37,586 nucleotides of DNA from Bacillota bacterium (lineage in GTDB: Bacteria; Bacillota; Limnochordia; DTU087). The position numbers were made by a program, and so were the translations under genes. The notes under the pieces are model-generated. The model saw only the letters and a program-made list of their open reading frames with translations, did not search any database and was not told where the DNA came from. Shown piece after piece: positions 1-6,238 of this stretch (the first letter of the stretch is position 1; each line of letters begins with the position of its first letter). The stretch is from contig JAAYSL010000052.1 in NCBI GenBank assembly GCA_012518315.1, positions 1 to 37,586 of the forward strand, given 5' to 3'.

Positions 1-1427
1 AAGGAGGCACTTAGTTGCGCGGAGGACTCAGTTGCCAGCTTTTCATCTATGGTCGCGATCTTGTCCTCTGTTACAGCCAAACGATCCTGCAACGTGATGA
101 CATAGCCCTGCAGCTCACTAACATATTCCTTTAGATCTGCCAGATCCCTGCTATCGGCGGCGGCACCCTGCTGCAAAATGGCGGTTCTTTTGTCCAATGC
201 GGTGATCCGATCAGTAATACTAATCAAATCAGTCTGGACTGCCTCAAGGCTTCTGACCAAATCCTGGCGTAATCCAGTTACATCCTGCATTAATTGGCCA
301 TCGGCGGCAACTAGCGCCTCAGCTTGTTTGACCAATTGCTCTTCCAGTCTGTCTACGTCCTGGACAAGAGTGTCTGTCTTGTCGGTGCGAGCCTGAATCT
401 CTTCTTCCAGCGCCTGCTGCAACTGTGTTAGCCCAATCCCTAGGTCATCTATCTGTACCGTGAGCTCCTCATTACGCTGACTGCTAGCCTTCTGCCATGC
501 GACCAATTTGTCTTCCACATTGATGAGTTGTTGAGCCGCCTCGGCCAGACCGACCTCCACCCGGTTAATCTCCGATGCCAACTCTGCGTCTTTGATCTCC
601 AGCTCGCTCTGGAGCAGGCTCAACGCAGCCTCTCTCTCAGCAAAACGGCTCTGTACCTTAACTCCGACCGCTTCCTCCAAGGCGGCTAGCGAATCTCCTT
701 GCACCGCTAACTTAAGTGCATGCTCCTTTAACTTTGCCGTATTGGCCTGTACTGCGGTATCGGTATCGGCTAAGGTCGATGCTGTACTCTCCAATATTGT
801 TGTTTGAATGTCTAATTTATCCCCTACCGCTCTAAGCTCTTTACCTTGCTGGGTAAGCTGATCAGCCAGAGCCCGATCTGTCGCATCCAGCCTCTGAGTA
901 GTAGCATTCATTTCCTGTCTAATACTGCCAATTTCAGCCAATATAGCGGCAGCTTGCTCCTGGATGGAACGACGTGTGGTGGCATCCTCTTGTTCCATCG
1001 TATCGATCACCCGTGTAATGGTATCATCCATCACTTGCACACGTTGCTGGGTGTCTGCTACAGCTGCACCTAAATTCTGTTTCTCATTGTACCAACGAAC
1101 CAATTCATCCCGGAATTCTGTAGAAAGCTGCCGAAGAAGGTCTAGGTCTGCCTGGGTGACTCCTAGCTGGCCCTTTTCAATCTCTACCAGCATTCTTCCC
1201 ACTACAGATGCTAATGTATACCGATCCACAGGTCTTTGGCCTTGGAACGTCCCATCCTCGTAAACAGCCAAATAACCTTCTTGTACTAGCTTCTTTACCC
1301 CCTGATAGGCCCAATGGCTTTCGGGAACATCACTAATCTGTTCCCCAGCACCAAACGCCGTCTGGCCTGCTAGCATCAGAATCAAAATCATCGCTACTGT
1401 TATTCTACTTGCCAATCTAGATCCCAT
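1..1427 (-). CDS. SLH-domain, coiled-coil envelope protein (3' end cut by window edge)
   Basis: An open frame runs without a stop from ATG at 1427 to the left edge, at least 475 codons, so the C-terminus is missing. Residues about 1-27 form a signal peptide with a hydrophobic core ending near AFGA. Residues about 30-80 match one SLH domain (SDVPESHWAY, then YEDGTF and a VDRYTLA segment). SLH domains bind secondary polymers of the cell wall. From about residue 85 onwards the protein is heptad-like, rich in Q, E, L, A and D with few prolines, as expected for a long coiled coil. One N-terminal SLH domain followed by a coiled coil is the layout of OmpM and Omp-alpha, which link wall to outer membrane and end in a beta-barrel; the barrel would lie outside the window. 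It is the last visible gene of the exbB-exbD-tonB cluster. Function is inferred; it could instead be a plain S-layer or cell-shape protein. Confidence 0.8.
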   Translation of the reverse strand, partial: MGSRLASRITVAMILILMLAGQTAFGAGEQISDVPESHWAYQGVKKLVQEGYLAVYEDGTFQGQRPVDRYTLASVVGRMLVEIEKGQLGVTQADLDLLRQLSTEFRDELVRWYNEKQNLGAAVADTQQRVQVMDDTITRVIDTMEQEDATTRRSIQEQAAAILAEIGSIRQEMNATTQRLDATDRALADQLTQQGKELRAVGDKLDIQTTILESTASTLADTDTAVQANTAKLKEHALKLAVQGDSLAALEEAVGVKVQSRFAEREAALSLLQSELEIKDAELASEINRVEVGLAEAAQQLINVEDKLVAWQKASSQRNEELTVQIDDLGIGLTQLQQALEEEIQARTDKTDTLVQDVDRLEEQLVKQAEALVAADGQLMQDVTGLRQDLVRSLEAVQTDLISITDRITALDKRTAILQQGAAADSRDLADLKEYVSELQGYVITLQDRLAVTEDKIATIDEKLATESSAQLSAS

Positions 1428-1490
1428 CTTTCCCCGCCCCCTGTCAATTTTTTGCCGATTGCCTCGCATGCTCCCACTTGCACTCACCGC

Positions 1491-3527
1491 TTACTTACCT
1501 ACAGTCACTGGCAATTCCGCTGTTCCCAACTCAACCACCTGGCCACTAGTTGTTGTTAAGCGGGCGGAATGTAACCAGATTGCGCCACTGCCTTCGCCCA
1601 CTGCTAGGAAGCGGACACCACATAGGTTACCGGTCAGACGACCCGATCCCATTCGGGAAAGCTGTGTAATTCTCACTCTAATCATACCCTGTGTCGGATC
1701 AACCTCTACTTGCATGGGAATATCCGTTCCCGCACTAGCAGTAGAGGAAGCCAACCCCGAACCCCGTTCAACTCCGAGCCGTCCACCGGCAACCCGCAAT
1801 AGATCCACAGGAAACTGCAGCCAAAATTCGGCTTCCTCTATGTTCTTTAGATTATAACCTTTCACTGCTGCCTTGTAGGGCTGGCCCACTGTGACAGCAG
1901 AACTGGGCTCTTCAGCTATGAGCCTTACTAGCTGCGGAAGCTGTGGTATGCTAATGAAACCATTTAGCACTTGTGCATCGGTAGCCCCAGACTCCACCCT
2001 AATCGAATAGGGTAGATTATCGCTTGCTACGTCAGTGGGAGTAATAAACCACTGCACTACGTGCTTCGCCTCTGGAGGTAGATCACCACTCAGCTTCATA
2101 CGTGCCTCCCCTGGCGCAAGCTGTAGTCCAATGGGGGCTTGCCACTCGGCTTGCACCCATGGCGCTTCCATTTCACCAACATTAGTAATCACAGCCCTAA
2201 CGGCGAAGGGAACGGGCTGTAGGCTCCCATCTTCGATTAATAGTCTGGGAGGCCCAGACAGATCCACCTCGAGCCGTGCCGGGTTCACTATTTGAACCTG
2301 GCGACGAACTTGGTTGGGTTCGCTATTGGCCGCTTCCACCCGAACCTGATAGCTAAACTCACCCCGAATTCGCTCTTCTACTTCCACTTGCCAGGCAATC
2401 TGCACCGATTCGCCAACAGCAAGATTGCCAAGCCTTCCCATTGCCTGCTGCCCTGGGGCAAGTGTCAGTCCTTCCGGCAGTTGGATGGCGGCCCGCACGT
2501 CCCTGGCCTCACCTTCACCACTGTTTTCCAGGTAGGCAACTACCGGGAAGCGGCTCCGACCTTCCGGTGATTGGGTAACAACCGCGGGCGATGTAACACC
2601 CAAAGAAAGCTTGCCAGGGGCGATGGTAATACCACCAAGGCCATAATAAGTGACCCAAGTAACGCTTTCACCTGGTGGAAGCGTTATAGGATCCCAAAAC
2701 ATGGCGATAGCCGAGTCCAGCTCGAACTCACCCTTGCGCAAGAACACTCGTCCAGGCTCAAAGTCGAAGTCCCAGACCTTCTCCGCGAGAACTCCCCAGT
2801 TGGTAAAATATACCCGATCTGGTGTCGTTACCCCTGGGCCCCGTAAGGTTCCCTGAGACATAACCTGGGGATCTGCCAGGGAGTCAAAGGCTTGCCAGAA
2901 ATCCGGTATAGTCTCCTTTGTGAACACCGTATCAGTAGTTACTGCTTGCTCTTTTACACGAAATGGCGCCCCATCGTTAGCACCAAGCATGGTATCTAGC
3001 ATCAACCGCATTCCCACTAGGTGGGGGACTGTGTCTCGATTGGTTAGCCGATAGGCGATGCGGGCGGTGTCCCTCAGACCGGTGGTGCTACTGCGAGTAA
3101 AGCTGAGAAGCTGCTCTGTCTCTACTGGACCAGTCTCGTAGATAGTGCGGATGACATTCCCCTCCACCACCTCTGGTCCAAAGACCAATTTGCCAAAGGG
3201 CCCTTGGCGACCGGCGGATGTTTGGGTACGGCCTCCAAACACGTAGTTACTTCCATCTACCTGAACTGTTGTGTATGATGTCCAGGGATCAGCCATACCA
3301 TATACTAGCGGTTTGTTCTCATCACCGACTCTATCTGGATCACCACCAGTGGTATTAATGGAAAACCGTCCAGTATTCTCTTTTCCTCCATTGACGATGA
3401 TGGATATGTACTCATTGGCAACGATCACGTTAGCGCCGACATTACCTTCAAGGGTGGCCCAGGCCTTCCCCACCCCCAGACTCATCAGCATTACCATGAC
3501 CAAGCCAAAAACCAGCCATCGCCGCAT
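1491..3527 (-). CDS. Secreted multidomain beta-sandwich protein with cohesin-like C-terminus
   Basis: This is a 678-residue protein of unknown function. Residues 1-25 are a signal peptide (MRRWLVFGLVMVMLMSLGVG, cleavage near AWA). Residues about 26-300 form an aromatic- and glycine-rich domain that I do not recognise. Residues about 305-530 contain two or more repeats of the CARDB or DUF11 kind, seen as phrases such as NSGEGEARDVRAAIQLPEG and NVGEMEAPWVQAEW, typical of extracellular beta-sandwich linkers. The last 140 residues resemble a cohesin-type fold: VTVGQPYKAAVKGYNL, then a hydrophobic strand ending DLLRVAG, then GNLCGVRFLAVGEG. No catalytic motif is visible and there is no sorting signal or C-terminal membrane anchor. 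It lies 81 nt after tonB and 63 nt before the SLH gene, so it is probably an exported envelope component of the same transcript. Confidence 0.8.
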   Translation of the reverse strand: MRRWLVFGLVMVMLMSLGVGKAWATLEGNVGANVIVANEYISIIVNGGKENTGRFSINTTGGDPDRVGDENKPLVYGMADPWTSYTTVQVDGSNYVFGGRTQTSAGRQGPFGKLVFGPEVVEGNVIRTIYETGPVETEQLLSFTRSSTTGLRDTARIAYRLTNRDTVPHLVGMRLMLDTMLGANDGAPFRVKEQAVTTDTVFTKETIPDFWQAFDSLADPQVMSQGTLRGPGVTTPDRVYFTNWGVLAEKVWDFDFEPGRVFLRKGEFELDSAIAMFWDPITLPPGESVTWVTYYGLGGITIAPGKLSLGVTSPAVVTQSPEGRSRFPVVAYLENSGEGEARDVRAAIQLPEGLTLAPGQQAMGRLGNLAVGESVQIAWQVEVEERIRGEFSYQVRVEAANSEPNQVRRQVQIVNPARLEVDLSGPPRLLIEDGSLQPVPFAVRAVITNVGEMEAPWVQAEWQAPIGLQLAPGEARMKLSGDLPPEAKHVVQWFITPTDVASDNLPYSIRVESGATDAQVLNGFISIPQLPQLVRLIAEEPSSAVTVGQPYKAAVKGYNLKNIEEAEFWLQFPVDLLRVAGGRLGVERGSGLASSTASAGTDIPMQVEVDPTQGMIRVRITQLSRMGSGRLTGNLCGVRFLAVGEGSGAIWLHSARLTTTSGQVVELGTAELPVTVGK

Positions 3528-3608
3528 CGATCACCAGCCCCCTACTCCGTTTTCTACGTTGTTGAACCTGTACCAGCTGAGCTTTTACCAAATAGATTAC
3601 GTCTTCGC

Positions 3609-4541
3609 TTAGTCGCCCCTTATGTAACGAATCCCATCATAGAGGATCGTTACTTCGAACCCCGGAGGCCCGCTAAACTCAATCGTGACCGAGAGAACGT
3701 AATCTTCCAGCAATGGTTCCATCTTCCACCCGTTTTGCACTGTCAGACGGGCTACTTGATCGAGATTCTGTGATCCCGACGATTCCTTAATCACAATTCT
3801 GTCTGCCTTTATTGCTCCTTTGGGCACATAGGCATCAAGCTTGACAACACCGGCCAATCCTTCATTAATCGCGTTCTTGGGATATTGCACACGCCCTCCA
3901 CCCGCCACTACACTACTGGCCGCGGGAAGTGGTGGCAAAGGTGGTGGAGATGGTTCGGCCTTCTCGGCAGGGCCCTGCTCTGCCGACGGAGACTGTGATT
4001 CCCCGCCCTCTGTCTCTTTGGCGCCACCACCAGAAACGACTACTCCTTGGCCATGCTCACTAGTAAGCAGAGTATCTGTATCGGTGCCTGACTCTGCTAG
4101 ATCCTTTTCTATACCCGTAACCGGTTTCACCGTCTCCTCTTCTGGTGGTTTAAGATCCGGTGTCACTTCTTTTTGCACCGGAGCTGTACTTGAGGGCTCT
4201 GGTGGAGTTGGGGGAGTTTCTTGCTTCGGAACAGGCTGTTTTGCCGGTTCGGGCTTTACATCCAGCTTCACTTCTTGTTCTGGCTTGGGCTCCGGTACTG
4301 GTACCTTCTTCTCGGTAGTGGGAACCCCTTGACCGGGCTGTCGACTGAGCTGTGCTCTAGGAGATGGTTGTTCCATCTCAATTGGGACAATGGTGAGGAT
4401 CCCACCATTACCTATTAGAAACGCGCCAGGCCCTGCTGCTATCTCCCATTGGGGGTAGAGAAAAATCACCAAAGCATGAAAAATTAGAGAAACAAGGATA
4501 AAGGCCCCTAGAGACCGTTCTCCCTCATCGGTAATATACAT
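3609..4541 (-). CDS. TonB-family energy-transducer protein
   Basis: This is a TonB-like protein of 310 residues. I start it at ATG 4541 because GGAGGTGG lies 7 nt upstream; the frame is open to 4580 but that start has no such site. A short cytoplasmic N-terminus is followed by one membrane segment at about residues 12-32 (LGAFILVSLIFHALVIFLYP). Next comes a long periplasmic-type spacer rich in Pro, Glu and Lys (repeats like PEPKPEQE and PSPPPLPPLP) up to about residue 215. The final 95 residues match the TonB C-terminal fold: YPKNAINEGLAGVVKLDAYV, then IKESSGSQNLDQVA and a W-K-M-E-P segment. TonB proteins take energy from ExbB/ExbD and act on outer-membrane receptors. It follows exbD directly. 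A TonB beside exbBD in a spore former argues for an outer membrane. No receptor gene is visible here. Confidence 0.9.
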   Translation of the reverse strand: MYITDEGERSLGAFILVSLIFHALVIFLYPQWEIAAGPGAFLIGNGGILTIVPIEMEQPSPRAQLSRQPGQGVPTTEKKVPVPEPKPEQEVKLDVKPEPAKQPVPKQETPPTPPEPSSTAPVQKEVTPDLKPPEEETVKPVTGIEKDLAESGTDTDTLLTSEHGQGVVVSGGGAKETEGGESQSPSAEQGPAEKAEPSPPPLPPLPAASSVVAGGGRVQYPKNAINEGLAGVVKLDAYVPKGAIKADRIVIKESSGSQNLDQVARLTVQNGWKMEPLLEDYVLSVTIEFSGPPGFEVTILYDGIRYIRGD

Positions 4542-4591
4542 TGTGGCACCACCTCCCCCCTGAGATTGTCTTACCCACAATCGATCAGGTT

Positions 4592-4999
4592 TTATTGATC
4601 ACGGGGGCGCACAGCTAAACCAAACCGATATCCCCCTACTTGTCGCACATCATCCATGGCTTGCACTACATAATCATAACGAGTGTTTTTATCAGCCCTG
4701 ATTACAACGAATAAGTCCGGCCTTTTCTGCAGTGACTGGCTAATCTCTTTCTTCAAGGCGGCAGAATTTACTTGGCGATCACCGAGAAACATCCGGCCAT
4801 CAGCAGCTATGGAGATTGTCACCTGGCTTGGGGACTGTTTATCTGAAGTCGCCGCCTTAGGAAGCTCTAGATTCAACCCTGCAGGTTGGGTTCGGAACGT
4901 TGTAAAAAGCATAAAAAATACTAAGATAAAGAAGATCACATCGATTAGGGGCACAATCTGTATATTGGGCTTTTTTCGGGCTGGACGCTTGACCAGCAT
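4592..4999 (-). CDS. ExbD/TolR-type biopolymer transport protein
   Basis: This protein of 135 residues is the normal size for ExbD or TolR. A basic N-terminus (KRPARKKP) precedes a single membrane helix, IVPLIDVIFFILVFFMLFTT. That helix carries the conserved aspartate, D20, which takes the proton in the ExbB/ExbD motor. The rest is a periplasmic domain of the ExbD fold, with motif DGRMFLGDRQV and the C-terminal segment YDYVVQAMDDVRQVGGYRFG. The start codon overlaps the exbB stop in a TAATG junction, so the two are translationally coupled and probably form one complex. With the TonB-like gene directly downstream, ExbD is a better guess than TolR. Confidence 0.92.
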   Translation of the reverse strand: MLVKRPARKKPNIQIVPLIDVIFFILVFFMLFTTFRTQPAGLNLELPKAATSDKQSPSQVTISIAADGRMFLGDRQVNSAALKKEISQSLQKRPDLFVVIRADKNTRYDYVVQAMDDVRQVGGYRFGLAVRPRDQ

Positions 5000-5613
5000 T
5001 AGATGTCACCCCTTGCTTCCAGAATAGCTAAGAGCTCCGAAGAGCGCTTGTTCATATCCACCACCAAGCGATCGATGATGCTCGTGAGATAGGAGTAGAT
5101 TAACATACCCGGGATAGCAATAATCAGTCCCACTGCTGTGGTAATCAAAGCCTCGGCGATCCCTGCACTTACCGCCAGTGGCTCCTCTAAACCACCAACT
5201 GCTACGATCATCTGGAAACTGTTAATAATACCGGTAACCGTGCCCAACAGCCCCAATAGCGGAGAAACGGTAACCAGTACATCAAGCATGCCAAGCCGTC
5301 GCTCCATACGAAATAGTTCCTCATTGGCGACTTCTTCCAAACGTTCTCGGATATGTTCTTTGTCTTTATCATAGTGGGCTATGCCAGCGGCCAACACTGA
5401 TGCAACCGGCCCCCTAGTCTTCTTCGCTATTTGCATAGCTTCTAGGATCTTGCCTTGCTGTAATGCCAGCTTGATATCATCCATCAAATCTTCTGTATCT
5501 ACCCGACAGCGCAGCAAGTAAAAAAGTCTCTCCAAAGTCACAGCCAACATTAAAACCGAGCAAAGCAGTAAGGGGATCATTACTGGGCCGCCCCGAATGA
5601 TCATATCCAGCAT
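4999..5613 (-). CDS. ExbB/TolQ/MotA-family proton channel protein
   Basis: This is a membrane protein of 204 residues, the usual ExbB length, with three hydrophobic segments at about residues 10-32, 108-135 and 150-178. The central conserved part is VTVSPLLGLLGTVTGIINSF, followed by GIAEALITTAVGLIIAIPGM, the signature of the MotA/TolQ/ExbB family. ExbB pentamers surround ExbD helices and form the inner-membrane motor driven by the proton gradient. A clear GGAGGT lies 7 nt before the ATG. It is the first gene of the minus-strand cluster exbB-exbD-tonB-secreted protein-SLH protein. The 274-nt region upstream, shared with the divergent SASP gene, contains a palindrome at 5686-5708 that could be an operator. 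Confidence 0.93.
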   Translation of the reverse strand: MLDMIIRGGPVMIPLLLCSVLMLAVTLERLFYLLRCRVDTEDLMDDIKLALQQGKILEAMQIAKKTRGPVASVLAAGIAHYDKDKEHIRERLEEVANEELFRMERRLGMLDVLVTVSPLLGLLGTVTGIINSFQMIVAVGGLEEPLAVSAGIAEALITTAVGLIIAIPGMLIYSYLTSIIDRLVVDMNKRSSELLAILEARGDI

Positions 5614-5816: not shown

Positions 5817-5846
5817 GCATGGGGAAAATATATCCAGGACATGCTA
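5817..5846 (+). promoter_or_regulatory. Sigma-G-type promoter of the SASP gene
   Basis: GCATG at 5817-5821 fits the sigma-G -35 consensus gHATR. CATGCTA at 5840-5846 fits the -10 consensus CATNHTA. The spacer is 18 bp, within the known 17-18. The transcript would start near 5853. This lies upstream of a gene whose product looks like a spore DNA-binding protein, and such genes are read by sigma-G in the forespore. The predicted transcript start lies downstream of the ATG at 5819, so that codon cannot be the start. Confidence 0.65.
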
Positions 5847-5887
5847 GGAACAAAGTAGGATTTCGTGTGGGGGGGACTCAGACCCAA

Positions 5888-6238
5888 ATGAAAGAAGAAG
5901 TTGAGGAGTCAAAGCAGATCCGTAGTCAAGCCATGAGTCAACTAAAGCAAGATTTGGCAGAAGACATGGGCCTATGGGAGTTAGTCAAAGAGAGAGGGTG
6001 GGGGGCTTTAGCGGCTAAAGACTGTGGCCGAATTGGAGGAAAAATGTCAAGCCAGCTCAGTCCAAACCTCCTTCGGAAGATAGCAGCTCAAAGTGAGCCT
6101 AAGCAGCCTGAAAAACCGTCCATCAGACCCAGAACAAAAAAAGGCGGTGAAACAAACATCTCCACCGCCCCTGAAAATATGCAGACTAGCCCACAGAACG
6201 ATATGAACAATGATGAAAGCGGTAGAATTCATCTTTGA
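5888..6238 (+). CDS. Alpha/beta-type small acid-soluble spore protein with C-terminal extension
   Basis: This is the only plus-strand gene. The core, residues about 17-65, reads QLKQDLAEDMGLWELVKERG, then WGALAAKDCGRIGGKMSSQL. It matches the SASP pattern in which LK..AE.LG is followed by GWG.L....G.IGG.M...L; these proteins coat and protect spore DNA. I choose ATG 5888 (116 residues); GTG 5867, with AGGA 6 nt upstream, is an alternative. ATG 5819 is ruled out by the sigma-G-type promoter at 5817-5846. Normal SASPs are about 60-90 residues. Here about 47 polar residues follow the core, and this tail runs through the terminator of the convergent acetyltransferase gene (6136-6169) and 53 nt into that gene. 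The tail may have arisen by loss of an earlier stop. I see no SASP terminator of its own. Confidence 0.82.
   Translation: MKEEVEESKQIRSQAMSQLKQDLAEDMGLWELVKERGWGALAAKDCGRIGGKMSSQLSPNLLRKIAAQSEPKQPEKPSIRPRTKKGGETNISTAPENMQTSPQNDMNNDESGRIHL
6136..6169 (-). terminator. Intrinsic terminator of the GNAT gene, inside the SASP coding region
   Basis: On the minus strand GGCGGTG and CACCGCC form a 7-bp GC-rich stem around a 13-nt loop, followed directly by seven T residues. It starts 17 nt after the acetyltransferase stop codon. The same bases code for part of the SASP tail on the plus strand, where the hairpin has no T-run, so it should act in one direction only. Confidence 0.8.

Follow-up and report, generated by a model that had tools for sequence, protein, structure and literature searches.

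In the diderm Firmicutes we identified an operon of five genes, encoding an ExbB-ExbD proton motor, a TonB-like transducer, a secreted protein (SEC) and an SLH coiled-coil protein (SLHCC), which is kept in order in nearly every diderm Firmicute examined outside one Negativicutes-like group, and which may do the job of Tol-Pal. The operon appears to be undescribed in the open-access literature searched. It was found at the left end of a window of 37,586 nucleotides (contig JAAYSL010000052.1, positions 1 to 37,586) from a Limnochordia genome, where ORF calls and Pfam matches place five minus-strand genes within positions 1-5613:

4999..5613, minus strand: exbB/tolQ-like motor subunit, 204 aa (Pfam MotA_ExbB, 2.7e-32)
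4592..4999, minus strand: exbD/tolR-like motor subunit, 135 aa (Pfam ExbD, 4.4e-33)
3609..4580, minus strand: TonB/TolA-like force transducer, with an N-terminal helix, a Pro-rich linker and a TonB-type C-terminal domain
1491..3527, minus strand: SEC, secreted all-beta protein, 678 aa (Pfam NPCBM_assoc/NEW3, 1.3e-5)
1..1487, minus strand: SLHCC, SLH coiled-coil protein, cut by the left contig edge (Pfam SLH, 2.4e-8, one domain)

These genes agree with the five co-directed genes of an envelope module reported in the preliminary description of this DNA. From exbB to SLHCC the successive junctions are an overlap followed by gaps of 11, 81 and 3 bases, an operon-like spacing. An Rfam search of the window gave no match.

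To follow the operon across species, SEC was scanned against 84,980 species (one genome each, GTDB), and the best 80 of 131 relatives were kept. At 66 of these best 80 loci, exbB-exbD-tonB-SEC-SLHCC was complete, on a single strand and in the same order, while the remaining 14 were interrupted by contig ends and kept the order as far as the contigs reach. This recurrence of gene order far exceeds chance, and an operon fixed across loci bears out the earlier suggestion that a tether and its energiser might be linked. The loci include Limnochordia, Halanaerobiales MAGs, one Halanaerobium and one entry named UBP13. Flanking genes vary by lineage, with the sigF operon upstream in many and chemotaxis genes downstream in others, and no neighbouring gene was common to all lineages at the module loci compared; the five genes nevertheless stay joined.

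The host genome is represented by a draft of 2.72 Mb on 281 contigs, with a completeness of 97.65%. One contig (C223) carries BamA (POTRA and Omp85 domains), TamB and a LolA-like protein, and LpxC lies on another (C149). A search of the genome for BamA, lipid A genes and TonB-dependent receptors, as proposed in the preliminary description, thus recovered BamA and the lipid A gene LpxC and none of the receptors, the receptor plug domain (PF07715) being absent from the host's own genome. The sporulation genes that had been read in the window are also present: SpoIIAB and SpoIIM exceed the curated cut-off, which SpoIIAA and a sigma factor of the SigF/SigG family narrowly miss, and a SASP gene was recognised by Pfam. 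This SASP-like gene (5819-6238, plus strand) encodes 139 aa; its SASP domain is confined to residues 36-76 and flanked by long extensions, and NCBIfam gave no match. Taken together, the outer-membrane genes, the spoIIA operon, spoIIM and SASP support the proposal that the host is a diderm spore former. That assignment is correct, but not new for the class: Limnochordia are diderm, and one of them, Limnochorda pilosa, forms spores and stains Gram-negative (PMC11456536, PMC11448272).

The distribution of the module follows that of the outer membrane. A draw across the phylum comprised 299 genomes, 76 of them BamA-positive and 223 BamA-negative. Full-length SEC and BamA occurred together in 66 genomes, SEC alone in none, BamA alone in 10 and neither in 223. 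The 66 SEC-bearing genomes cover 29 families, so that the pattern is not one clade counted repeatedly. Nine of the 10 BamA-positive genomes without SEC fall in two families (f40 and f70) that are probably Negativicutes, and most carry TonB-dependent receptors; the tenth is 84% complete, and other members of its family have SEC. Both the module itself and its association with the outer membrane are well supported. In one family (f7) BamA and the module are present and LpxC is missing, which indicates that the module goes with the outer membrane and not with LPS, and which weakened an LPS-linked role that was also considered. LpxC was missing from all sampled genomes of three families of the class (f3, f7 and f130), of which f7 is nonetheless BamA-positive, and this suggests outer membranes without lipid A.

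Both motor subunits score nearer to their Tol than to their Exb counterparts. Against NCBIfam the exbB product gave 105 bits for tolQ versus 81 bits for exbB, and the exbD product 80.6 bits for tolR versus 61.8 bits for exbD, all four scores being under the cut-off. Positions corresponding to TolQ T145 and T178 are invariant in 73 module ExbB copies, as is the TolR D23 position in 75 module ExbD copies; the ExbD of the host's module is the only ExbD of its genome. The transducer matches Pfam TonB_C at 231-303 (1.7e-8), and its C-terminal domain was modelled with a pLDDT of 91-98 and has TonB C-terminal domains as its top PDB matches. Its S31 and H35 form the SxxxH coupling motif, which is present in 70 of 77 module transducers; three of the other seven are missing the N-terminus, and four have the His and not the Ser at that spacing. 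In a tree of ExbB plus ExbD, a module clade with support of 97/96 contains 30 of the 31 module copies. Receptor-linked and Negativicutes-like copies lie outside it, as does one divergent, weakly placed module copy (L120).

The SLHCC gene could be completed by joining contigs. Bases 1-127 of contig C212 are the reverse complement of window bases 1-127, an exact overlap within the coiled coil, and the remainder of the gene (C212:128-287) adds about 52 residues. Counted from GTG the joined protein is 548 aa, an ATG 20 codons downstream being a possible alternative start, and its C-terminus reads ...SLKGASNIATIAAVLALIIGFVR, compared with ...SLKGAANIATIAAVLALIIGFIGN in an intact homologue (L059). 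We regard the join as sound because intact homologues have similar ends and because the genes 3' of SLHCC in relatives are those on C212. The contig break inside the coiled-coil gene, with its 127-base overlap, is an assembly artefact, and the same gene is broken at contig ends in two further genomes (G002 and G010). The completed protein consists of a signal peptide, one SLH domain, a long coiled coil and a C-terminal hydrophobic helix, and has no lipobox Cys. Its coiled coil is very variable in length among homologues, which span 211-800 aa overall. A relation between TonB and SLHCC lengths was considered as a sign that both span one gap, and was set aside, with a rho of only 0.34 across 61 loci, uncorrected for relatedness. 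The sole other SLH protein found in the host genome (L146:688-1878, contig C267) has 396 aa, three SLH domains and no evident coiled coil. Two Phe-ending, OmpM-like SLH proteins lie in the outer-membrane cluster of the relatives G005 and G004 (L184:3119-6112 and L184:919-2448, L188:4938-8111 and L188:2728-4317); the host's own copy was not found, contig C149 stopping before that point of the cluster.

SEC is predicted to be all-beta (AlphaFold pLDDT 88.5), and comprises an N-terminal domain without a Pfam or NCBIfam family, Ig/NEW3-type domains and a cohesin-like C-terminus that matches a cohesin dyad over profile positions 542-659 (E 1.6e-11). The protein as a whole has no NCBIfam family, and a fold search returned generic Ig-domain strings and cohesin, which gives no function. 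Its orthologues at module loci are single-copy and 36-84% identical, with ~40% identity between distant lineages. Large secreted proteins of 600-2600 aa in BamA-less genomes (L174-L182) also begin, or nearly begin, with the N-terminal domain, and one of these proteins has C-terminal SLH repeats; the shared domain is extracellular and without a Pfam family.

We consider the chances about even that the five genes code for a force machine that spans the envelope and works like Tol-Pal. In such a machine the ExbB/ExbD stator in the inner membrane would harness the proton gradient and drive the TonB-like protein across the periplasm; through its C-terminal domain this protein would pull on a periplasmic SEC-SLHCC complex, contacts that are suggested by gene linkage only. 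SLHCC would be the tether between outer membrane and wall, its SLH domain binding the wall and its C-terminal helix sitting in the outer membrane, as in Omp-alpha. We infer this position of the helix from the analogy with Omp-alpha (PMC9388160, PMC3387000) and from the strict co-occurrence with BamA. SEC would then stand in the place of TolB as an adaptor and SLHCC in that of Pal as the wall-binding tether, and the outer membrane would be gripped, released or repositioned, for example at constriction or engulfment. The Tol-Pal-like reading draws on a gene order that matches tolQ-tolR-tolA-tolB-pal, on motor scores nearer TolQ and TolR and on a last gene whose product is wall-binding and anchored, as well as on the invariant motor residues, the SEC-BamA co-occurrence, the scarcity of receptors, the separate module clade, the absence of TolB from the 299 genomes, the presence of BamA and the module in the LpxC-less family f7, and the Omp-alpha-like architecture of SLHCC.

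Several observations count against this Tol-Pal-like reading. SEC does not have a beta-propeller fold, nor is SLHCC an OmpA-like lipoprotein, and the default location of an alpha-helical anchor would be the inner membrane. In its C-terminal domain the transducer looks like TonB from receptor systems, and neither SEC nor SLHCC yielded a TonB-box-like peptide. In the nine receptor-bearing genomes with a single detected ExbD, the motor of the module might power the receptor as well. Relatives moreover carry OmpM-like proteins alongside the module, so that the outer membrane there is already tethered. A more specific proposal is held with somewhat less than even confidence: that this is a separate energised tethering machine, in which a TolQR/ExbBD-type motor is combined with SEC and SLHCC, unrelated effectors that replace TolB and Pal, and that it forms the core outer-membrane maintenance and constriction system of diderm Firmicutes except the Negativicutes-like families, lost wherever the outer membrane was lost.

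An ordinary Ton system, with ExbB-ExbD-TonB powering TonB-dependent receptors for nutrient import and SEC and SLHCC as accessory envelope genes, would account for the TonB-type C-terminal domain and for the plug-domain protein found in 23 of the 66 module genomes, nine of which have only one detected ExbD. The plug domain was, however, missing from 43 of the 66, namely the host, where a conventional import role for the TonB set accordingly finds no receptor to serve, and 42 others, although receptors too divergent for the plug model are possible. A second ExbD was present in 13 of the 23 receptor-bearing genomes versus none of the 43 receptor-free ones, and typically lies about 3 kb from the receptor. 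Module copies form a clade apart, genes linked to the module are never receptors, and the module is independent of the receptor-linked ExbBD. The receptor counts, the receptor-linked second ExbD and the tree all weaken the import reading, which we regard as distinctly unlikely. Module-bearing diderm Firmicutes with TonB-dependent receptors, their own exbB-exbD and mostly tonB were seen at L150-L159, L165, L168 and L169 (for example in G250, a single-contig genome). These sets are at variance with a curated survey in which Ton among diderm Firmicutes was reported in Negativicutes only, and Tol-Pal in Gracilicutes only (PMC12204202). Surface display, with SLHCC as a scaffold and the motor pulling SEC, or proteins that dock on its cohesin-like domain, to the outer membrane or across it, would fit that cohesin-like C-terminus and the occurrence of the SEC N-terminal domain in giant secreted surface proteins of BamA-less genomes. 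Yet a single-copy protein about 40% identical across distant lineages would better fit a core component of the periplasm than a variable protein of the surface, and secretion or gliding genes are not linked to the module across lineages; we consider display very unlikely.

The remaining alternatives turn on the C-terminus of SLHCC. The preliminary description had expected a C-terminal beta-barrel in the SLH gene, that is, an OmpM-type tether beside an unrelated Ton system, and the SLH-porin model por_somb does match the SLH domain and next helix of SLHCC (1e-10). The leftward extension via C212 instead revealed a single hydrophobic helix, and no barrel was found in the host protein or in its 66 complete homologues, of which 57 have the terminal hydrophobic helix at KD19 >= 1.6 and 62 at >= 1.3, followed by a median of one residue. 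Phe is the usual final residue of outer-membrane barrels; it ends only one of the 66, and the Phe-ending OmpM-like proteins of relatives are encoded at another locus. The OmpM identity of the SLH gene was therefore rejected, and this version retains next to no probability. By its sequence architecture SLHCC instead resembles Omp-alpha of Thermotoga. Hydrophobic alpha-helices are by default destined for the inner membrane, and a machine of that membrane, with the SLHCC helix inserted there and linked to the wall, and with the motor acting on the wall or storing tension between it and the inner membrane, would also suit the signal peptide and short C-terminal end of a simple anchored protein. 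A link between inner membrane and wall would nonetheless not require the module to occur only with BamA (66 of 66 genomes, versus 0 of 223 without). The last residue is Asn in 24 of the 66 homologues and Lys or Arg in only 24, which leaves no clear basic cytoplasmic tail, and Omp-alpha, of the same architecture, has been assigned to the outer envelope (PMC9388160, PMC3387000). We consider the inner-membrane arrangement unlikely, while giving it appreciable weight.

A survey from 2022 reported that diderm Firmicutes and other atypical diderms are without tolB and pal, so that outer-membrane maintenance and invagination need another way (PMC8871954). In 2009, an ExbB-ExbD-TonB set without receptors was noted in Halothermothrix orenii and left without a function (PMC2626281). 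Like the module, that set has the three motor genes together without receptors, and it comes from the Halanaerobiales, an order in which the module was found, whereas SEC and SLHCC are not mentioned in the 2009 paper; the set, known here from the description in that paper, is likely to be this module. The operon is thus a concrete, testable candidate both for the missing substitute for tolB and pal and for the receptor-less set of H. orenii. If the proposal is true, it would constitute a second solution to energised outer-membrane tethering, with a bearing on the retention or loss of the outer membrane in Firmicutes.

In Tol-Pal, the release of Pal from the wall is due to TolB, and TolQRA, powered by the proton gradient, removes TolB from Pal, which allows Pal to bind the septal wall (PMC8928145). 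The module shares with it the five-part E. coli order of two motor genes, transducer, secreted protein and wall-binding anchored protein, a TolQ-TolR-type motor with the conserved Thr and Asp residues, a transducer of the TolA/TonB family and a tie to the outer membrane. It differs in that SEC is built from successive Ig-like domains, with a cohesin-like one at its end, and TolB_N (PF04052) was found in 0 of the 299 genomes, with controls working, in that the product of the last gene is a coiled-coil rod bearing an SLH domain and a terminal helix instead of an OmpA-like lipoprotein, and in that CpoB and YbgC are absent from the module. With Ton systems it has in common the ExbB/ExbD-family motor and the TonB-type C-terminal domain; receptors are, however, missing from the host and most module genomes, and receptor-linked sets represent an additional copy that falls on other branches. 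The OmpM/SlpA-like tethers of Terrabacteria resemble SLHCC in the SLH domain with its following helix and in the coiled coil, but not in their beta-barrel. Architecturally closest is Omp-alpha (OmpA1) of Thermotoga maritima, with its signal peptide, single SLH domain, long coiled coil and C-terminal hydrophobic helix (PMC3387000, PMC9388160), although SLHCC shares its operon with SEC and a proton motor, whereas the Thermotoga gene adjoins the porin gene ompB (PMC9388160). By family membership the module is consequently neither Tol-Pal, since its fourth and fifth proteins are not TolB and Pal, nor OmpM, since it has no barrel, nor, in this organism, a receptor-energising Ton system; the claim made here is that it works like Tol-Pal.
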